This document shows, in pieces, positions 3,301 to 44,337 of a DNA stretch of 64,000 nucleotides. The stretch is from Branchiostoma floridae. Taxonomy: Eukaryota; Chordata; Leptocardii; Amphioxiformes; Branchiostomatidae. The stretch covers positions 30,807,850 through 30,871,849 of the forward strand of contig NC_049982.1 in NCBI RefSeq assembly GCF_000003815.2, in the 5' to 3' direction. Within the stretch, counting starts at the first letter, position 1. Each line of letters starts with the position of its first letter. The translations under genes were made by a program, and so were the position numbers. The notes under the pieces were generated by a model. That model did not search any database, was not told the DNA's origin, and worked only from the letters and a program-made list of their open reading frames with translations.

Positions 3301-6300
3301 AGCACCCCCCGCCCCCCCCTCCCCCGTGCAATACGTATTAGGGTCGCATTACCCTAGCAGAGTATGGACCATTTGATACCTAGAGAGAGTTGATGGGCTT
3401 TAATCAAATGGCCTCCTTTACACCCCTCACGAAGAAATACTCTATAATCATTCGATCGTTCAAAACCATGGTCCCTTGTGGGCACCATATACAAAGAAAG
3501 AGGAAGGTAAACGGGAGAACAGAACCAAGCTGCCAGATTCTGTACAAACAACTATGATAGCGGTGGCAGTGTCCCCAAAATGAATCAAAAGACCTCACTT
3601 AACTTGAAGACAGAAAAGAATTACCCAGCCTATTTCTGATGTACAAAATGACAAATAAACTAATCAATGTACCAACAGACAAGAACAAAATAGTCAAGTA
3701 CCCAAGTTTTCAACAAAGGATTGATGTATTCAAATAGCCGTTCTTTCCGAGTATAGTAGAAGCCAGTTAATTGCACAACGGATTAGCGCACACTTCTGGT
3801 AACTGCACGGAATCCCCAAATCCCAAACCGGTGTGGTCCAGCAAGATAACTTCGCATTATTGCACCAGCCGGATAATTGCAAAAAATTCACTGACAAATT
3901 GGTCGTGCAATTAAGCGGCTTCTACTGTACTATAACTAAGTGAAATTCGTTTCCATCAAGTACAGTATGTGTAGGCACTTTAAACAACATTTGCAGTCAG
4001 ATGTGCAAGGGCTAGGTGTGACATGTCGTTCAGTATGATATATTGATAGCTTTATTGCACAACAATTGTACGGGGTACAAAGTATGGCATCTACATCTAC
4101 ATATCTAACTAATACACATTGAAGTTGTAGTATGGGATAAGTTTCTTACAGTCATTGGTGGCTTTTACAAATCATTGGAGGAGTTTCTAATGTCTAAACT
4201 TTCTTTGATATATTTTCCTATATCTGTCATGCAGGGATTGTCACATGTCATGATGTATTTGAATTTGCACTTCAGGTCCATTGTGTTAAATCCTTGTGTA
4301 TAAGATATATCACCGCGTGCCTGCGAGGCTTGTGTGTTATACTGAAAGGCTATGCAGATATACAGATACAGACACTTCTAGTGCCGTCAGGTGCACTCCC
4401 AACCAAGAAATATGAGCCCTACCCAGGACTGACCCGGATTCCCAACTAACTGGACCCAGGAAAAGCTACCAGTTGAGCTACAGAGACTTTGTACTTATCA
4501 CACGGTTATGTCCTTTATCACTGTAGGTCCGATCCAGCAGTGTCTACAGTCGGAAGCCGAGGCAGAAAACGTGTGTGAGGTGTTCCTGTGTCTGGAACTG
4601 GACGACACCTGTCTGATCAAGGGCCTGTACGACCTGTGCGTCAGCTTCTTCCGAAACACCAACAACTTCAGTGAATCGGTAAGACCCCCCCCCCCCTCCC
4701 CATGTAGAGGTTCGCCTCTGGCTGTTTTCTTATGTTTATTTAGGCGTTTTTATCTGGCTTTCTATTTTTTTAAACCGATTTCTTTATGTCTCACGGCCAA
4801 AATTCTTTGTTTAAAACAAGTCATATGTGGGGCCGTGTAGCGCAGTGGGTCCGCATTTGCCTCGTGACCAAGAGGTTGCGGGTTCGAATCCGACTGCTGT
4901 GTTACCGATCTTGTGCCCTTGGGAAATGCACTTTACACGACTTTCCTCACTTTAATGAGTACCTAGCTTCGGCTAGGGCCGCCTTCTGATGGAGGTCCCG
5001 TGTTCGGGGAGAGCCAAAATGGGTTAGGAATCTCCCGAGCAGCCCTCGTAACCCCTGCTTCGCCTATTGGGTCTGTTAGTCCTCACTCATAGTGTGCAAT
5101 TGGGCTGGTCTCAATCATGATGTTTCTGACCTAGGGCAAAGAGATGCTGTTACAGTTACAATGTAAACCGTAACCTTGCGTGGCCTTCAGGCCTTGTTAC
5201 GTGGTGACCATTAAGTAAAAAAAAAAAAGAAGTCAAAAACAGCCGGAGCAGAACCTCTGCTTGGTGAATATACCTTTTCTGATATTTCAATCTACGGCAT
5301 ATATTTTCTGTAAAAACTTATTTTATTTTTGGAAACGGCCAACACTTGATGCTCGAGCGGATGTCATCCATATAATCAAATCAAAAAAGACCTTAGTCTA
5401 CAAACAACAAATGCATCATGACTAGGGCTGGGTATCGGTACAAAACCGGTTTTTCTTATTGGACCGGTCCAGAAAAACCGGACCTGAAAAAATTAGGTGG
5501 GCCGGATGTTGGACCGATTAGAAAATTAACAGATTATTTCATCAGGCATTCATATGTTTCGGCGCTTGCAGGTAAGAAAATAACAAGAAGGAAAAAGATT
5601 TAATTTCTACCAAGTTTTACAGCCAATTGTACAGGTGCAGTTGGCGTTGTAGGATGTTAAAACGCCAGTGTAAGTCTAATTCTCCACCAAACAGATTTCT
5701 TTGTAGTAAAATGGACCATTGGTATGAGTCATACTGAATCAGGTCCAGGTTCAGGTCCGGACCTGGACCTGATCATTTGGACCTGAACCCGACTTGGACC
5801 TGAATTTTCTGTACCTGCACCCACCCCTAATCATGACTGTACACAGAATAACTTTATTGCGCAACAATTGTAACAGTTACAATGTATGGCAATGTGAACA
5901 ACTATATACTAATACAAATAAGTAACAACTAATGTAATATAATATAACAGTATAAACAATCTAGTGAGTATCACAAAGCATTATCTCGTTTTTGTAATGA
6001 GTTGTAAATAAATTGGCCTACGTAGGCAGATATATGAACAGGACATGATAATATCAAATGGAATACCTCTGACCTAGCATGTGGTAGTACAATTTCGGAC
6101 TTACATACAATATTTTGAAATAACTTTTGACGGTCTTCTTCATAAGTCGGACAATCCATTACAAAATGAAATTCATTTTCTATGTCATTATGGCATGTGG
6201 GACAAAGTCTCTCATTGGCTGGTATGTTGTAGTGTCGGCCCTTTTCAATTTGTAAGGTGTGTGCACTGATCCTTAGTCTCGTTAGGTTATTTCTAAACAA

Positions 6301-31054: not shown

Positions 31055-34000
31055 ATGCCACAGCGAAGCAGTCCAGCGACCCTGAAACACCTGAGTATCG
31101 TCAGCATTGCCACCCACATGGACAACCTGTGGGCAGCTGACTATATCCACAACTACCTGGACCAGTATAACTTCTGGTACATAATCGGGCCGTTTGACAC
31201 TCTTCGTGAGTTACCGTTTTGAATGCTAGCTATAGAACATACAACTCCCTGGTACATTGGTTATTGGGTTATTGGGTGGGCCGACTTAACTCACTCTTTG
31301 CAGCCAGGGGCTGAATTGCAAGAAGCTTACAGTAAAGTGAAAATGAGTAATAATTGTAGCTATAACTAGTTCATGGTTCATGTTCAGACTGTTTTTCTTC
31401 CGTCTCAGGGGCCTTAAACTTTCATTTTTAGCTTTGTCAGAGCTTCTTATTGAAGTTTTGTCTCTCTTCTTTACATGTCACCAATGTGGGTGGCGCTTTT
31501 GCATACGCAAGTAATGAATCGAGATGAGTGGGGGATACAAACTTAGCCATGTTTTGGATTGTGTTCTCACATTCTCACTTACTCTACTGTCTGCCACTAT
31601 TAATAAGAAGAGTGCTAAGAAGAAAAGTATGGAAGCTAAACACACTACACTACCAGTGGACTAGTCCCATGCTGTAGTGACCTATGTGTGTGGCTCTAGG
31701 ACTACAAAACAGAGATGGGCACCAGACCAGACACATCACAATGATATATTTCATAACTTTACCTAGCTAGCCTTACCACTCATGCTATTCAACCCCTAAG
31801 CATAGGCAATTGTTTATGATATCAAACAAGGCTGTAACTGACACTGCTATATTTTCACATTTTGTATTCCCATCACAAATAGCTTCCCATTTGATCCAAG
31901 AGCTGATTGAGTTCTTGGTGCAGAAGAGACAGCTGGGCAGGCGGCACCTGCACCTGATGATCCACCAGCACCTGGAGAGTCTGCACCTGGGCAAGTGTAG
32001 CAGCTGCATGACAGATGCCATCATCAAGCTGGTGCAGATCAGATGCAAGGTGGGAAGGACATTCTCTACAAGTTTGTTTGTTTGATCCTTTGTTTATTCA
32101 TAAAAGCTCAAATCGCCCTACAGGCCGCTTTTCATTGAGGTCATGAGGGAAGAGACAAGAGTCAGACAAAGGACATAGCAAGGAGCCAAGGATACAGTTT
32201 ATATCATTTAAAATCCTCATGGGCCTTATAAGTTTGTATACCCAACTTACATAGTACAAAATACATAATAGTGAGAGCTGCTGCATGATTCGAGTCTGTT
32301 CATTTTGGTCATATCCGTTACTTTAACTTTTAAGAGTCTCTTAAAGGAAGCCAGAGTTGGGGCTGTGCGTATGTCCGGTGGTAGACTGTTCCAGATGGTG
32401 GGTCTGCGGTAGGCGATGGCCCTTCTGAAGGTTTCTCGCTGGGGTTTTGTGACATCAAGTTGATTGCTAATGTACTTTGCCTGGTTGTTCTTGTGCTTTC
32501 AACAAATAACGAGTATCTGTGGTTTGAAATTACTTTTTTCCATATGAGCGATCGCAATGATGTCACGATGACGTAGTGGTAGGCAAAAAGCAGGTGTTTG
32601 GAGAAAGATTAATCATCATGTACCCAGTAATTTGATCTACTAATTCAAATATAAACTTTTAATCCAATCTACTGACATCCTGGTAGGCATCAGCCGTCAA
32701 ATACCGCAGATATCAACAACAACAGTGATCGATCATACTTAATGTTCATTTACGGTGTCTGTTTAAGAAAAGGGTAAAAAAAAATACTAGTACAAGTGCA
32801 TCCAGTTGGATTAGCCTTGAAAGTTTATCAAAACTTTTACTGTTCTTCAGACAATTAGACATTAGTGTCTGTATCTTCAGGAGTGAGTGGGTGTGAGTGA
32901 TGCATTCCATGATGTTGTTAGATAAGTTCTTTCCAGATTAGATATGTGTATATATGGTACCTAAACGTAAAATCAGAAACAGGAACAGTAATTTTTTACA
33001 GGGAGGTTTAGGTACAGGTCTGGACCTGAATAACAATGACAATGTAAACTTTGGTTTTTATTGTGGACAGAGACATGAATAAACAGTGAACAGAATGTTA
33101 TTCAGGCTTCAAGTATCTGTGGATGCAGAGAACATGTGCTTTTAAAAGAGAATCTCAAAACAAAGATGATGCTGATTTCACTGTCTTTGCAAATATGTTA
33201 TGGAAAAGAATTCTCCTATATCCCACAAATATTATAATCTTTTTCCTGACACTGCTAAAATACATTTCAATAGAATTTGTTAATAATGGAAAAAGTCAAA
33301 AAGTTTTATACTTGACCTTAAGCCTATTCATGAATAGTAATACAATGATATCCAGTATGTTTACTCTGTATTGGTACACATCTCTTTTCCATTTAACACA
33401 GACAGTTTGTGTTTCTATGTCTTTCACAGAAGTTGAAGAAGCTGGACCTCTCCAGATGTAACCGCCTGACCTCCTACGCCATGTCCATGGCCCTGAGTTA
33501 CCTGCCCAAACTTGTCTACCTCAACCTGTACAGCACCAACTGTACTGACGAAGTCCTGGGGACCATCGGTGCCATCTGTGTCCACCTACGAGACCTCAAC
33601 ATCTGTAAGACTCACGTAACAGACAAGGGGATAGTTTCCCTGTGTGGGGGTGGTGATAGCGTTCGCGGGTGTAGAAAGCTGGTCAGTCTCGACGTCTCGT
33701 TCAGTCCAAAAGTGACCATCAAAGGGGTCAAACACGCTCTGAGACAACTGCCGAACCTACGACAGTTACTACACAACGACGTGTGTGACGCTTTGGTTGC
33801 TCTACACGAAGAAGCATTCAAGGAGGGGAAGACGGCGCCACCTTACCAGTTGCGTAGCGGAACGGTCAACGATTTCGTGGTCCCGGTTAGTTTCCTTGAG
33901 ATCGTCGATCTCGTTTGTCCCTACTTGGAGTACATCTTCGTACTTAACGAGAATCTTGAAGGTGAAGTGCTTCATCACATATCAAGGTTGACACGCCTAC

Positions 34001-34605
34001 GAAACCTCTCGGTATCGTGTACAGACTCTGTCGTGCCTTTCAGTGAAGGACTTGTGCCCCTCCTTAACAGTGTTGGCCATGGACTTGAAACCCTCACCCT
34101 GTATGGTTACGACGACATCGACGTCATTGCCATCGGTCAGTCTTGTCCGAACTTGCAGACCCTCACCCTCGAGAGCTGCCGTGGCTTCAAACTCAAACAT
34201 GCCCAAGCCGCTACGTCAACCACCTTGTTCGGCAACTTGAAATCTTTCAGGCTAGGGGTAGAGGTTATTTCTTCTACACACGACACGGCGGTACCTGAAA
34301 GTCTGAAGATTATCCTCGAAGATAGTCGTCAGATTGAGAATGTCGAGATCACAAACGTTGACGGATTCACCGATCAGTTGTTCAGGCACGTGTTGAGCCA
34401 CAACAGCTTTGCAAGGCTGCGAGAGTTTGCCCTGATTGATTGTAACAATGTCACGGGTGCAAGCATCTTCGAGCTGTTAGAAGGAAAGAACCGGCTTCAA
34501 AGACTGGTGCTGTTGAACTGTAAGGAAGTTATGAGGAGAGACTATGATATGATGATGAAGACTGTTGCAAGTCAGCACTTTCAACTGGAAATTACATGGA
34601 CGTAG
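31055..34605 (+). CDS. AMN1/ZYG11-like leucine-rich-repeat protein, 3 exons, 497 aa
   Basis: Exons are 31055-31205, 31883-32049 and 33430-34605 (phases 1 and 0, GT-AG). The start ATG sits in a good context (caccatgc). Residues 1-70 are helical and contain TLKHLSIVSIATHMDNL and LPSHLIQELIEFL-like stretches (PSHLIQELIEFL). This resembles the N-terminus of ZYG11/ZER1-type substrate receptors of Cullin-2 ligases, although the BC-box cysteine is replaced by Ser. From about residue 80 cysteine-type LRRs follow (LESLHLGKCSSC, LKKLDLSRCNRLTS, LVYLNLYSTNCTD, LRDLNICKTHVTD, LETLTLYGYDDID, LQTLTLESCRGF), giving a solenoid of about 12 repeats. There is no signal peptide or membrane span, so it is probably cytosolic. 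A role as a ubiquitin-ligase adaptor is an inference from the repeat type. The large last exon has higher GC content than the surrounding DNA. Confidence 0.8.
32290..32570 (-). mobile_element. LINE ORF2 C-terminal fragment in LRR-gene intron 2
   Basis: The minus strand encodes WNSLPPDIRTAPTLASFK followed by RLLK. This is the characteristic last segment of many Jockey/CR1-type ORF2 proteins. Upstream parts are absent or frameshifted, so it is a dead 3' fragment. Confidence 0.7.
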
Positions 34606-35847: not shown

Positions 35848-36304
35848 AAAAAAGCGGAACTCGCTGCTTCCGATGACTCAGCAGTTCCTCATTTCTCCCG
35901 AGACAAATACCCACTGACAAATGGGAATCCCCCAAGACAAACAAAATCCTAAAGATGAATAAAAATCCCCTTATGCCAGTACAGCTTACGCATTCCGATC
36001 ACACATGTAACGTTAATAAAATGGCATGTAGAAAAGTATTAGAAATTGCCGTGGGGAACTGCATGCAAAACCGTATGTAAAGTGATATACACTATAGACA
36101 CTATTAGTCGAAATTTTCTCAAAACTAAGAAATGCATAGCACACCATGAAGGGTCACTGAGTATATTGTGACATCATTAAGGGGAATCCCTTGACACACC
36201 GTGCAAAAAGCGGAACTGTTCCTTGTTTCGCTCGATGAGTCACTTCTTCCCCCAAGACATACTTACGCAAAACAACATTTTAGAAGCAGAAAATATCTGG
36301 AACC
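35848..36304 (+). promoter_or_regulatory. Upstream region of the receptor gene with paired kappaB-like and AP-1-like sites
   Basis: Two related modules are visible. Module 1 has gcggaact, TGACTCA (35874-35880) and GGGAATCCCC (35923-35932), followed by ccaagacaaac. Module 2 has GGGGAATCCC (36181-36190), gcggaact, TGAGTCA (36236-36242) and ccaagacatac. The decamers fit the NF-kappaB consensus GGGRNNYYCC, and the heptamers fit AP-1. Both modules lie within 460 bases of the start codon at 36305. Function is inferred; the transcription start is not known. Confidence 0.5.
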
Positions 36305-39300
36305 ATGCGCGCCGGGCCAGTACTTCTTCTGTGGGTCTGCTTCGCCGTAGCTACACACGTAGCGGTTACCGGCACTACACTTATAGCTTCAGCCGCAAGC
36401 TGTACGGAGAGGGCAACAAATGTCTACAATGTCACGGGGCCAGCTACCGACTGCTCCCGAAGAAATTTCTCCGCCGTACCGACCAATATTTCGTCCGCCG
36501 CCGTAGTCTTGGACCTGACTTACAACCGACTGAGCTTCGTAAACCGGGAGAGTTTCAAAGGTCTCGCCCAGCTAAAGGTACTGAATTTATCTTATAACCA
36601 GATAAGCACAATAGGGCAAGATTCTTTTTCGGAACTGCCTGAACTTTACGAACTCTATCTTGACCACAACGGCATATCGTCAATAGCAAGCGACTTTTTC
36701 CAGCGGCCGTCTAGGATAGAAAATCTTGACCTCTCTTTCAATCGCATCGCCCACATTGGAGACTCTGCCTTCGATGACCTTGGTGTAACCTTGAAACAGC
36801 TTGCACTAGGGCACAATTACCTCGGCAGATTGTTTTCCATCGAAAAATCCATCGGAATATTTCAACAACTCACAAACCTCACACACCTTGATCTAAGCAA
36901 CAATGGGATATATGATTTTAGGTCAGACGCATTCCGATCTCAGTCAAACATCCGGTCTTTGAATTTGGCAGGAAATGGTCTTCGTGATAGTGGCCTTTTT
37001 ACTGAAGAACATAATCACTCGAGCTCGGGTGAATACGTGCTGCCAGTATCAGTGTTTCGCAGTTTGTCAAGTCTGAATTCTTTACAAATCAGTCACAACA
37101 GCCTTCGGCTTTGTTGTGAGGCATACAGAGGGTTAACAAGTTTAGAACGTTTAGATTTACGGTCCAATGCTATTCCGAATGTTGAGCCTGAAAACATAAC
37201 GAGGGTTTTGCCAAATCTGAATGAATTGTATCTCAGGGGAAACCCCTTTGACTGTAGCTGCAGGGCTGAGTCATTCTTTAGGTGGGCGGCTGACTCATTT
37301 GTTGACACGGACTTTGTAAACTGGACTTGTCAACAACCAACGTCGGTGGCAGAGGCAAAAGTTGCTGAGTTGGACATCCGTGAATGCGGTCAAGACATTA
37401 AGTCTAATGCATCGTCGATACACATTGCATTCTTGATGATAGGTTGTATTTCTGCTATCGGGTTAGCACTAGTGGCTATGTTTGTCCTATGTCGATGCGG
37501 AAGACTGAGAGCTAAATTTTCAGCGTTCGAAAACATTGGACTTGAAGAGTGTCAGTACGATGCCTTCGTCAGCTACAGTTCGGACGACTCTGAGTGGGTT
37601 CATCGCAAACTAGTTCCACGTCTAGATTCGCTTAATATTCAGTCTTGCATCGCTGATCGTGATTTTACGCCTGGCATACCAATACTGGAAAACATCATAC
37701 ACAGCATCGAACAGAGTCGGCAAGTTGTCATTGTGGTGTCAAGAAATTTTCTACGTAGCGATTGGTGCAAGATCGAATTGCACATGGCCGAGCAAAAGTA
37801 TTTCTCTAGTAGTGAGAAATACGTCATCCCGATTTTACTAGAGGAAATACCCATTCAGATGATGTCAAAGAGTCTGCGATATCTGCTAGCAACGAAAACG
37901 TACCTGGAATGGAAAGATGGAAGAAAACAAGAGGACCTGTTTTGGCGTAGACTTGGGGCAGCGGTAAAGTCGAGCTTGCCTCTCAAAAGGACCAACAACA
38001 ACGACGCCATTGACATGGAAGAGGAAGAACTCGTCACAACCAAATCTCTGGCCCAGTCGTCAAGCCCAATAAAGTTTCGGCTATCTGATGACACGAACAA
38101 TGAAGTCGACGTTGAGCCAGAAACACAATGCGACCATGAAACAAGCGCTAGCGTTAGTTTGAATGTTTTGCCTAAGCAACAGACGAACGACCACGACCAT
38201 ACAACGGACACTACAAGTGTTGATGACGGCTCTTACATTGACGACTGTCCACCCTCCGATTGTCAGACTGTTTCCAGTTCCGAAGACCACGTAGACAACC
38301 CAGTAGTAGAAGATATCGAGCCAACGAAGACGAGGAGGCAAGCTCTCGCGACATTCTTCACTGGCATGATTGAAAAGGGTCGCCATGTGTTTTTCACAAC
38401 GTTGTTTCGTTTTAAGTACACAAAAACGTCGTCTTTCCATCAAAAAGTATCGAAGAACGCTTCGGCAACAGAGCTGTTCTTACCAAAAGTTCTCCAAGAA
38501 TCGTACACAGAGGAACAAGCCCATGTAACGTGTTGCCACGAGGAGCCAATCTACCAAAACTCGTGGTTTCTCTACCATGCGATCAGGACGCGAAGAAAGG
38601 AACCACTTCCGCCTGTCCCTGATGAGCAAGCTGATGACAGCATTTCAGAACAACAGACAACCGTAGTCCACATGGCCGCCATTGAGCATTCTCAGTCCCC
38701 AGCACCGATGGAAATAGCTTACTATCAAAGGAGCCTTACACCGTACCAAGAACATGTGGAAGAAGAACTCCAAGTGATGCAACAGCCGCGCCTCAATGTC
38801 AACGTTGTTACTTCATCCCTTGCGACTGGCATCTTTGACTCAAAGGGTGGTCATCTGGTCATCGGAGGCACAGGCGTTGGGCTCTTCATCCCACCAGGTG
38901 CGATCAGAGATAGCACAGAACAACAAATCACCATCGCCATCAGCACGGAAGAGTGCGACAAGCCGACTCTGACGGAGAGGCAGGCTAGGATAAGCTCCGT
39001 GATCAAATGCAGCCCACACGGCATCACTTTCGATAAAAGCGTAGCCTTATCCTTTCCGCACTCAGGAGAATTCTGCAATAGCAAGATCATACATCCTCTC
39101 ATAACGAACACATGCAGAGGACAACAGGCCGTATACGAGGATATGAAGAAAGACCGCGGTGCTCACGCCATAGTAAGGAAGGCAGACTGTGTGGTGTTTC
39201 TTGACCACTTCACGGGCGTCACCCTAGTAGAGGAAAGCCCTTGTCCTGATGAGGGTGCAAAAGGGGAGAGCGACAACAACGACAGTGCTGAAAAACCTGT

Positions 39301-42300
39301 ATACGCCATCCCCTTCTGGACCCTCACCTCCAGCGGTGACGTTGTGGTGCGTGTGAGGCTTTGCCAGAAAAGGGACGACGCCAAACAGGTATGTAGCTCC
39401 ATTTTTAAAAGAAATAATGATCATTGACTCCCCCATGCACTGTAACCTTGTGTAGCATTCGTCCGTTTGATTCTAGTGCTTTGAAGATCACAATTTCCTT
39501 GTTGTTGGCAGGGTCAGTTAACGTTGTGAGTCAGTTGTCCAATTCTTGGAAGCCAGTCAATGTCAAAGTTTCTAGACATGTTTGGCGGTTTCTGCCTCTG
39601 TTTTAGCTATTGACTCTAATCAGGTTCTAAAATCAGTATATATGCACCTAAGTATGATAAGTTCGATTAGTTGAAATGACGGCAATTGCTGTCAATATTC
39701 AGTCATCATTGATAAGCTCTTCAAACTTTTGAGTGCATATGTGCAGCGACAGGAATTGTGGGTAATATGTCAAAGTTGAAGGACCCTGCGACGTAAACAA
39801 AGCACGTCTTCACATTGTTACTCAAATTGAGCCAATGGTGGAGTCACTGCACTTGGGGGACCGTTGCGGCACTGCGGGGTTCGTAGATGACTTAAAGAAT
39901 TTCAGAGATAAAAAACGAATGTTCTTACGTTTTTTGTCATTTTCTTTGTTGCCCTCTAAGACGTAAATTTACGTAATACGCAATATCTAAATTTTACAAA
40001 AATCGACGAAAATATACACCAAAACAGTGCTGCAGTGAACCTACCCCGCAGTGCCGCACCGATGCCCAAAATGCAGTGAGACGCCAGCTTAACCAAGAAA
40101 AATCCAAAAATCTGTCTATCATTCGTCTCGAGTACCAGTATTTTAATTTACTGCAACTCTTCTCAGATTGCCTACGAGGAGGAGCGAGCCTGTGGAAGCA
40201 GACCGTGTGACGGACCTCCCGTAACGCTGTACGTGCCGGTGAAGGGCGGCACAAAAGCTCGGGTACAAGTCGTGATGGACAATATAAGACAAGGGTGGGC
40301 AAGCGTCGACGGGCTGGAAAAAGTGAGTACATGAAGACACGGCTATCTCATCTTTTTGTGAACTGATACAATAAGCTGATACCCGATTTGAATAGCACAT
40401 GCGCAGTTCGTCACGTACGTCAACGAGCTGCAAATACCCCCGTTGTATTGCGCGAAAATCGATCGGACGACGAGTCGGCGAGTTGTATATGACATTTTCC
40501 GCAGTAATATGTCCATTGTTTTCTTGAACAGTGCGCAATTTTTAATGATCGTCGCGATTTTTAGGAGTCGGTTGATGCTCACTGTGCAACGAAACTTGTT
40601 CTAGTCGCCGGTGATCTTTGAGGTCGCAGAACTGGCGATCTTTGAAATGTCGGGCGACTATAGACCGACTTATTGATCATAGGTCGCAAATCGGATTGCA
40701 TACACCCGTCTGTCGGTCGAGTTTCGCCCGACTCCCGATTGTTCGCAAATGTAGAATTTCTTTGACCTGACGTGTAATTCTGTCTTTATTCTTATGGCAT
40801 AAGTTATGCTGATGTTTTCTTTTAACAGGTTACCGACTGTCGCAGGATTTTCACCGATGACGAGGTACAACAATGCAGCTTCTTACTGGAGAGAAGCAGT
40901 GATGGCGTACACAACTCCAACAGGTTCCGATGTCGTCTTCATATCATCCCAGTGGGAAACGAGGGAGATGCGCAAACCGTCTACGTGTCAGTCCTCACAG
41001 ACGAGGTAAGTGGAAAGTGACAATAGACCTTTTTTCCAGTTACGGAGGCCATGTTGGATTTCCTGAGGTTATCTGGGATCATGTGCCAAAACGAGGCTGT
41101 TGTTGGTCATTCTCATATGTCTATGTAGCATGCATTGCAGACATAAGTATGCCCCATGAAATCTAACATGGCTGCTGTAACTGTAAATAGGTCTAATGGC
41201 TATTGTTTGCACCCACGTGACTATGACGTAAGCGTTGTCCGCCATGATGGATTATTAAACCATCATGAGATGAATTTTAATGTATTACAAGGCTAGACAC
41301 TTCATTATACTTGTTACACTATATATAACGTGTTCCAATAAACATTTGTAGGTCTTTCACTTTGAGACCCAACCACGAGGTAAGTGGCAAATAATGGCAT
41401 AAGTAGACCAGTGTTCCACGGCCTCATACTTTCACAAAATGTTGATACAATCAAGGCCCTCGTTTGCATAAAGTCATTATCCGATCATCTCTTCCACCGA
41501 AACAACAGAAATAGGCGATTGTTTCTTAAGACAGCCTATACCAACATTTTGTCATCATTTATGCAAATGAGGTATTCATTTGCTTATATCCAACAATGTT
41601 TACTCTTACGTAACTCTAATGCCGGCCACAGTTATGACTTTCCCGTCATTTATCACTAAGGAATCATAGAATTTTGTCATTAGTCATGTAAGTTATCTTT
41701 TATTTATAAAGGATGGATGAATGGCGACCTTTATTGTAAATTTTTGCCCAACAAAAATAAGTACAGGTCACAGCATAGACAAAATATGCTTGTAAAAGTA
41801 TCATAGATTTACTCTAGCACAGAGGTTCGGCTTTTTATCACTTCTAATAAGTAATAGGGAAATGTAAGACTGTATTGGTTTGATAATCTTCGGTTTATCC
41901 AAACGCAAGAATAATACCATTTTTTTTTCAGTTTTACTCATTGTAATATAGAGAATTGTCCTAGCACTTTATTCTTACACTAACTGAGCAATCTGCTTCA
42001 GCCCCCACCACCTCAAAAACAAGACTTCACAGCCACAGCCAAGAGGCCACCATGCCTGCCAGCGTGGGCGAGGGAGGAGCTCTGTCGGCTTTTGGACCCA
42101 AGCAATCCGAAGGGTAACGACTGGAGAATGCTCTCCTTTGAGTTACATTTGCAACTTGACTTCAATGACATCCAGCTGTTTCAAGAACACAGCGACAAGA
42201 GGAGTCCAACCTTCCAGATCCTCAGTCTATTTGAGCTGGATTACGGACATCTACCCCAGGTTAGTTCTTATCACAGTCCTTTCCACACCATATGGAGTGC

Positions 42301-42346
42301 ATGGCGGCGCCAATCACCGTTCTCATAGCCCTTGTGCAACACAGCT

Positions 42347-42377
<31 letters not shown>

Positions 42378-42880
42378 GGGTTGTAGTCCACTGGTTAACA
42401 ATGCGTTCGCATGGCCATGTCATTACATTTCCCATATGTTCTGAGAGCAGGGTGGATGGGTGAACAGTGTATGTGCTATTCTATGATTCTAAAAAACCAC
42501 TGAGTGACCGACAGCATGCAAAGAGAGCACTCTACCACACATATACGTACTTTTCCAGAATTTTCCAGAATTTGGGCAAAGTTAGGAGGGTTGGGGTCTG
42601 CCCCCCCTAAAAAGGGCACCCATTTTTTTTTCGGGGTAATAAAGCAAAAACTTTAAAGAGAGGGATATACCTTTGATAAAAGGGGAAAAACTGCCCGCAG
42701 AAACTATCTTAATCGCGGGGGTTTTGACATTCCTCCCAAGCAGGGCACGATATCTTTTGCAAAAACAAAACTATCTATCTAGTATCTATTCGTCTCTCCC
42801 TCTCTCTCTCTACACGCACACACGCACACACACACACGCACACACGCACACACGCACAGACACACACACATGCACACACA

Positions 42881-42972
<92 letters not shown>

Positions 42973-43817
42973 CAGAGAGAGAGAGAGACATTGTTTGCTG
43001 CAAACTAAAAATCTATCAATTAAAGACAGTCCATATTTATTCTATTTGACAGGTGCAACAACTTCATGCCCTACGCAAAGTGCTATCAGAACCACCTATG
43101 GGCCGGCCGGACGCGTCCCAACTTGTAGAAAAGGTGATTTCTCAACACTTTGTGGACACTGCTGCTCCTCCAACCACTGAGCATCACCAACAGCAACCCT
43201 GTAACCCTGTCACACCAAACACGATGGCAAGGCTAACAGATGGCAGGTATTACTCTCCATATGCTGCACCTTGTGCCGTTCATCCAAACGTACACTCTAC
43301 CATAACACAGCTAACAAATCTAGACAGTAGCATACCCTGCATCCAACATGGTACAGCCAATTGTGACAATGTACCAGAAGAAGCAGCAATGTTAAAACAG
43401 CAAGGGGCTGTCCGTAAGCAAACATATAGACAAGATTCCAATATTACCTCTACAGCGGCATCCTTCAAAATACCGACCGGTAAAAATTCAAGAATGTACA
43501 CTGATCACTTCGAAAACATCAGTCAGATAGAAGGTATGCAAAATCATGTTCATGACTCAGCATCAACTAGGACACAAGTGGCAAAATTTGACGATGATCA
43601 GATGATTCTTGAGGAGGTCCGAATCGGCAGCTCGAATGCTGTAGAGTTGCCGTCATCTGAAGATGCGCTCAACTGGACTGACGACAAAAAACTCACGGAC
43701 AAACACGATGCTGTTGACAATGACCTTGGTGAGAAAGGTCTAACAAAGTCCATGACAAGTATGTATCATTCCCATGCGAAGGAAAATGTATCACTTCTTA
43801 ATGAAACCGATGTATAG
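36305..43817 (+). CDS. Toll-like receptor fused to ZU5-UPA-Death module, 5 exons, 1479 aa
   Basis: Exons are 36305-39388, 40167-40322, 40829-41005, 42002-42259 and 43053-43817, all GT-AG and all phase 0. Signal peptide is 1-24. About ten LRRs occupy 65-312, with LRRCT at 313-362 (NPFDCSC, WTC, ECG). One membrane span is at 373-397. The TIR at 416-557 keeps box 1 (YDAFVSYSSDD), the BB-loop proline (RDFTPG) and box 3 (FW). An acidic linker covers 562-838 with PDEQAD at 772-777. ZU5 is about 840-978 (GGHLVIGGTGVGLFIPPGAI, CSPHGITFDKSVALSFPHSG). UPA is about 1000-1139 (QQCSFLLERSS). The Death domain is about 1158-1245 (ELCRLLDPSNPKGNDWRML). A 230-residue unassigned tail follows. TIR recruits MyD88-type adaptors and ZU5-UPA-Death is the UNC5/PIDD module, so a plasma-membrane or endosomal innate receptor with two outputs is inferred. 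It is not UNC5, because the ectodomain has LRRs rather than Ig and TSP1 domains. It is not PIDD, because a membrane span and TIR are present. I know of no named family with this order. Confidence 0.88.
39836..40090. mobile_element. MITE family D, copy 2 (receptor intron 1)
   Basis: Ends are ggtggagtcactgcacttgg and aatgcagtgagacgccagct, with the same cgcagt and attacgtaatac-like core as the copy at 17330. It ends about 75 bases before exon 2. Confidence 0.82.
41022..41196. mobile_element. Palindromic MITE (receptor intron 3)
   Basis: The left end aatagacct and cagttacggaggccatgttg pair with taacatggctgctgtaactg and aataggtct at the right. The element starts 16 bases after the exon 3 donor. 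Confidence 0.75.
42340..42380. repeat. (GT)n followed by a G-run
   Basis: About ten GT units run into about 21 consecutive guanines in receptor intron 4. The exact run length may be a sequencing artefact. Confidence 0.9.
42790..42989. repeat. Compound microsatellite (TC/AC/TA/GA) in receptor intron 4
   Basis: Consecutive blocks of TC, AC, TA (about 38 bases) and GA (about 65 bases). It splits the two exons that encode the Death domain, and its end is about 65 bases before exon 5. Confidence 0.97.
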
Positions 43818-44155: not shown

Positions 44156-44337
44156 TTAAGGGTTAATGACACGCCCCAAGGTGTATATGGTGTCATAACG
44201 CCTGGTCCTTTGCTATAACCACCGAATAAAACCACCGAGTGAGCGAAGCAAACGAGGTGGTTTTATGAGGTGGTTATAGCAAAGGACCAGGCGTTATGAC
44301 ACCATGTACACCGAGGAACAGGCGGGTCATTAACATT
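44156..44337. mobile_element. Palindromic foldback element
   Basis: gttaatgacacg, cataacgcctggtcctttgc and tataaccacc are matched in inverse order by ggtggttata, gcaaaggaccaggcgttatg and cgggtcattaac, giving arms of about 75 bases. It directly follows the family A MITE. Confidence 0.8.

Follow-up and report, generated by a model that had tools for sequence, protein, structure and literature searches.

Organisation of the locus

The window analysed here is a 64,000-nucleotide stretch of the genome of the lancelet Branchiostoma floridae (NC_049982.1, forward strand, positions 30,807,850 to 30,871,849). Between window positions 36305 and 43817 lies a five-exon gene whose predicted product would join a Toll-like receptor (TLR) to a ZU5-UPA-Death tail of the UNC5/UNC5CL type. 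From the N- to the C-terminus the order is signal peptide, leucine-rich repeats (LRRs), one membrane span, TIR, linker, ZU5, UPA-like region and Death, with the following features (residues are numbered in the joined protein).

36305..39388, plus strand: exon 1, from the signal peptide to the start of the UPA-like region, residues 1-1028 (reading frame, Pfam; donor GTATGT)
36305..36385, plus strand: signal peptide region, residues 1-27 (hydropathy; start aligned with other lancelet proteins)
36506..37309, plus strand: LRRs, about residues 68-335, then a cysteine-rich LRRCT-like cap (Pfam LRR_8 and TLR3 matches; limits approximate)
37409..37507, plus strand: membrane span, residues 369-401 (hydropathy)
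37556..37996, plus strand: TIR domain of TLR1/2/6 type, residues 418-564 (Pfam, PDB sequence search)
38543..38620, plus strand: linker motifs EPIYQNSWFLYHA (residues 747-759) and KEPLPPxP (765-772) (alignment A1)
38825..39259, plus strand: ZU5 domain, residues 841-985 (Pfam match 841-922)
39206..39214, plus strand: His-Phe-Thr (968-970), at the site where the ZU5 of PIDD and CARD8 cleaves itself (UNC5B alignment and the accessible text of PMC3210808)
40167..40322, plus strand: exon 2, UPA-like region, residues 1029-1080 (joined frame, profile comparison)
40829..41005, plus strand: exon 3, UPA-like region, residues 1081-1139 (joined frame, profile comparison)
42002..42259, plus strand: exon 4, bulk of the Death domain, residues 1140-1225 (Pfam Death from 1163)
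43053..43817, plus strand: exon 5, end of the Death domain, a tail of about 225 residues and the stop (joined frame, Pfam)
44225..44230, plus strand: AATAAA, the first polyadenylation-like word past the stop (word search)

Joined, the exons give 4440 bases (1479 amino acids and a stop), and all four introns are in phase 0. An earlier sequence-only reading had proposed five in-frame exons coding for one chain, and joining the predicted exons at GT-AG borders, chosen by eye, does keep the frame through all 1479 residues. Exon 1 lies in an open frame of 1047 codons from stop to stop (36284..39427), which upstream of the ATG reaches a stop after just seven codons. The first residues align with the starts of five of the six related lancelet proteins described below (P0001 to P0006), P0001 beginning later. 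Because TIR and ZU5 share the unbroken frame of exon 1, misspliced or mispredicted exons cannot account for their fusion. Transcripts confined to exon 1, accompanied by a separate transcript of exons 2-5, seem unlikely, since residues matching exons 2-5 occur in five of the six lancelet proteins and the sixth (P0006) ends at an assembly gap. Word search found neither AATAAA nor ATTAAA in intron 1; such words are present in exon 1 (38068) and in introns 3 and 4. Intron 4 also contains long CA/TA/GA simple repeats (window 42810-42990).

Domains of the predicted protein

Of the domains claimed in the sequence-only reading, LRR, TIR, ZU5 and Death were recovered by Pfam, and the signal peptide and membrane span by hydropathy; the LRRCT cap, for which Pfam listed no match, was called by eye from its cysteines, and the UPA is weakly supported. 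The LRR_8 (E 2.1e-39), TIR (E 1.2e-20) and ZU5 (E 6.4e-21) matches in the exon 1 frame are all far over the Pfam cut-off, a further Pfam search gave ZU5 at E 1.1e-21, and the chain contains one ZU5 stretch. The Death match spans exons 4 and 5 (E 5.9e-7; 30 bits over the cut-off of 22.6), exon 5 alone having no Pfam match. The best PDB matches were TLR3 for the ectodomain, TLR6 (8.6e-32) for the TIR, with TLR6, TLR1 and TLR2 on top, and UNC5H2/UNC5B for the Death domain (UNC5H2, E 4.7e-5). The module as a whole best matches UNC5B (E 7.6e-17 and E 9.8e-15).

Hydropathy revealed two hydrophobic stretches, at residues 3-27 and at 369-401. The signal peptide threshold was also passed by P0002, but not by P0003 or P0006, and a membrane span was found in all three. 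The signal peptide, LRR ectodomain, single span and TIR after the span are features of a TLR; Pfam listed LRRs in the ectodomain and no Ig or TSP, unlike the UNC5 netrin receptor. In the linker between TIR and ZU5, both EPIYQNSWFLYHA and KEPLPPxP are kept in all seven lancelet sequences of alignment A1. The YxN and PxxP within them are taken here to resemble SH2/SH3 docking sites, and a third signalling route through these motifs is possible.

The UNC5B alignment extends through the UPA-like region, a profile-profile comparison matched it to the UPA of UNC5-type proteins (E 7e-4, probability just 27%), and a low-confidence structure model of a relative covers it; a UPA is thus weakly indicated. 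Alignment A5 comprised the spider protein mentioned below and three lancelet frames with a Pfam UPA, a fourth such frame being omitted. At the ZU5 end, the HFT of the window protein occupies the position of QLG in the UNC5B alignment and of SFS (cut after F) in CARD8 (PMC3210808). It is kept in 7/7 sequences of alignment A1, and HF(S/T) is present in 15 of the 39 lancelet ZU5 stretches examined, the window gene and its paralogue included.

Lancelet relatives and the second copy

In protein database searches, TIR occurred together with ZU5 in six lancelet proteins and in no others among the matches, the closest being at most 86% identical to the window copy. Two proteins, P0002 from B. lanceolatum and P0003 from B. 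floridae x B. belcheri, carry the full LRR-TIR-ZU5-Death order. In P0004, from B. belcheri, the LRR part is shorter, and TIR, ZU5 and Death follow it; P0005, a B. lanceolatum protein that bears the name UNC5CL, retains part of a TIR along with ZU5 and Death; P0001 (floridae x japonicum), judged by its precomputed domains, begins within the TIR and goes on through ZU5 and Death. P0006 (toll-like receptor 2, Branchiostoma floridae) matches the second copy and ends after ZU5 at a 100-N assembly gap. Faulty annotation, isoforms or real losses could explain the pieces missing from P0001, P0004 and P0005, which lie mostly inside one B. floridae exon. Database names of the relatives include TLR2, UNC5CL and uncharacterized protein. 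Matches from outside lancelets comprised LRR and/or TIR proteins, ZO-1 and a single UNC5C-like protein of a spider; since the searches require shared 5-residue words and returned only this one UNC5-type protein from outside lancelets, absence of TIR-ZU5 elsewhere is not established. Alignment A2, the input to one database search, held four of the seven sequences, and A4 likewise.

The 513-Mb B. floridae assembly contains at least 85 TIR and at least 41 ZU5 matches, lower bounds that were counted exon by exon. They meet at two places only, the window gene and a paralogue 1.07 Mb away, with 1263 and 1269 bases between them; the next-nearest pair is separated by 335,608 bases. In a genome search for Death domains 150 of 588 candidates were scored, and from the absence of the window Death domain among those listed no inference is drawn. 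At eight other lancelet ZU5 loci the ZU5 frame has a phase 0 GT at its corresponding end (sites picked by eye). We infer that the module may derive from the expanded lancelet ZU5 set of this genome. The second copy and a stray last exon are placed as follows.

G000:C4:29776792-29780016 (L009:1293-4517), 29.78 Mb: second B. floridae copy, with a 100-N gap right after ZU5
G000:C279:195135-195869 (L047): copy of the last exon (exon 5) on an unplaced contig

Exon 1 of the paralogue is likewise a single open frame, up to the gap. No further exons of this copy were matched in L047, L052, L009 past the gap or L010, and L047, L052 and L010 contain more N runs. An allelic duplication was rejected in view of a synonymous divergence (dS) of about 0.28 in exon 1.

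Pairwise Nei-Gojobori ratios of nonsynonymous to synonymous divergence (dN/dS) between the window gene and the paralogue, computed with our own script and without error bars, were 0.23 for TIR, 0.25 for ZU5, 0.33 for exon 5, 0.42 for the linker and 0.51 for the signal peptide and ectodomain. These ratios indicate selection on the parts. Across lancelets the best-kept part is UPA-Death, with 85-87% identity against 64-68% for TIR and linker (P0002-P0005).

Three other features were recorded. Directly upstream (33397-34605, plus strand) is a 402-residue LRR frame with LRR_4 over the cut-off and a weak similarity to Zer-1 LRRs below it; at 4433-4837 (plus strand) there is a Stanniocalcin-like frame (Pfam E 6.5e-7). 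Elsewhere in the genome, L012:2484-4157 (G000:C2) is an UNC5CL-like sequence that carries HFS and encodes, in one frame, a membrane-like segment, ZU5, UPA and, at a score below the cut-off, the beginning of a Death domain.

Comparison with known proteins

The protein resembles the TLR1/2/6/10 group in its LRR ectodomain, one C-terminal cysteine cap (called by eye), one span and a TIR of that group. TLRs usually carry the TIR close to the C-terminus, whereas here about 270 linker residues, ZU5, the UPA-like region, Death and a tail follow it. With UNC5CL (ZUD) and the UNC5 receptors it shares the nature of a membrane protein with a cytoplasmic module of ZU5, UPA-like region and Death that aligns to UNC5B; UNC5 has Ig/TSP outside, and neither UNC5 nor UNC5CL is known to have LRR or TIR. 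PIDD1 likewise combines LRR with ZU5-UPA-Death and has an HF motif at the ZU5 end, but PIDD resides in the cytosol, has two copies of ZU5 and lacks a membrane span and a TIR, while the window protein has one ZU5 stretch, a span and a TIR. MyD88 also carries TIR and Death on one chain, with Death before TIR and no LRR, membrane span or ZU5-UPA; in the window protein TIR precedes Death and there is an ectodomain.

Hybrid innate-immunity proteins are known from amphioxus, where Zhang 2008 (PMC2575513, available in part) reported 28 TIR combinations, 20 of them amphioxus-specific; the window protein is like these hybrids in belonging to the same lineage and in joining TIR to death-pathway parts. 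The terms ZU5, UPA and UNC5 are absent from its main text, and its supplementary partner list may include TIR-ZU5. In a literature search of partial coverage, no paper was identified that describes an LRR-TIR-ZU5-Death receptor; none combined amphioxus, Toll-like receptor and UNC5, and those with amphioxus, TIR and ZU5 describe no such receptor in the text accessible. Many lancelet TIR combinations are already known, and the relatives stand in public databases.

Interpretation and alternatives

We favour, at a probability of about 0.5, a lancelet TLR that has gained an UNC5/UNC5CL-type ZU5-UPA-Death tail and would thus be receptor and death-domain adaptor in one chain. A ligand at the short LRR ectodomain would dimerise the receptor, and its TLR1/2-type TIRs would pair, still able to call MyD88-type adaptors. 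Dimerisation would also open the ZU5-UPA-Death unit, closed at rest as it is in UNC5B, and the Death domain could then directly nucleate partners that have death domains, whether of IRAK type or not, so that NF-kappaB/JNK output would arise independently of MyD88 or alongside it. The nearest functional precedent is UNC5CL, for which the accessible part of PMC7570868, citing Heinz 2012, describes involvement of IRAK1, IRAK4 and TRAF6 and a MyD88-independent route to NF-kappaB and JNK. Given that report, the presence of a ZU5-UPA-Death module is not enough to imply apoptosis. The sequence-only reading had further suggested that a single ligand could start NF-kappaB-type and apoptosis-type signalling together, with no need for MyD88 to supply a Death domain; this double output is conjectural.

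Several observations weigh against the favoured reading. The whole order is present in only two of the six relatives, P0006 being cut at its gap, and the parts of LRR/TIR missing from P0001, P0004 and P0005 speak against full conservation. In comparison with P0002 of B. lanceolatum, identity is 63% in TIR and 72% in the ectodomain, so TIR is not the best-kept part. The Pfam UPA model is not listed for the window protein at E up to 10, where HMMER filters drop most matches above about 0.1. VIA-align places the death domains of FADD, UNC5H2 and IRAK4 within 1 Z, and this tie means that the partner of the Death domain is not readable from its fold. Finally, a ZU5 and Death protein, presumably UNC5CL, was reportedly called an NF-kappaB inhibitor in the title of a 2004 paper. 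That title would fit a receptor whose tail sequesters death-domain adaptors and so lowers TLR output, but the TIR dN/dS of 0.23 against the paralogue and the activator role later reported for UNC5CL (PMC7570868, in the text available) make such damping quite unlikely.

Cleavage or cell death might instead be the function of the tail. After the model of PIDD, CARD8 and NLRP1, which cut after F in (H/S)FS, the ZU5 could cut between His-Phe and Thr (969/970) and hold UPA-Death non-covalently for later release as an effector. HFT was at first taken as a strong sign of this, but the frequency of HF(S/T) among lancelet ZU5 stretches weakens it, and self-cleavage is doubtful. More doubtful still is the fuller version, a membrane-bound self-cleaving TLR in which ligand at the LRRs frees the pre-cut UPA-Death fragment, MyD88 is bypassed and the lancelet lineage has kept the protein; if true, it would unite the TLR principle with that of PIDD, NLRP1 and CARD8 in one protein. 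A dependence-type or PIDD-type receptor, with the Death domain driving caspase and cell death and the TIR as modulator, would agree with the best match of the module to UNC5B and with an LRR plus ZU5-UPA-Death combination reminiscent of PIDD; lacking the UNC5 Ig/TSP ectodomain and having just one ZU5 stretch, the protein is an unlikely candidate for this type. Two adjacent genes or a misassembly taken for one might be suspected from the incomplete annotation of several relatives and from the objection, credited to Banyai and Patthy in the accessible text of PMC6224433, that high rates of new lancelet proteins stem from faulty gene prediction. Such an artefact is most improbable and appears largely refuted: one exon holds both TIR and ZU5, P0002 and P0003 show the same order, exon 1 of the paralogue is equally one frame as far as the gap, and the eight other ZU5 loci have the phase 0 GT. 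The single chain of the sequence-only reading therefore stands.

Significance

In the lancelet lineage, 85% of TLRs are reported to be species-specific within 130 Myr (PMC4284660, available in part), and the annotation of relatives in B. lanceolatum and B. belcheri despite this turnover suggests a function worth keeping. The gene ties the TLR world to the ZU5-UPA-Death world of UNC5CL, PIDD and NLRP1/CARD8. TLRs are thought to require a separate adaptor to reach death-domain kinases, and this receptor may send a signal that normally takes one; with both halves in one natural chain, the requirement for a separate adaptor would become directly testable.
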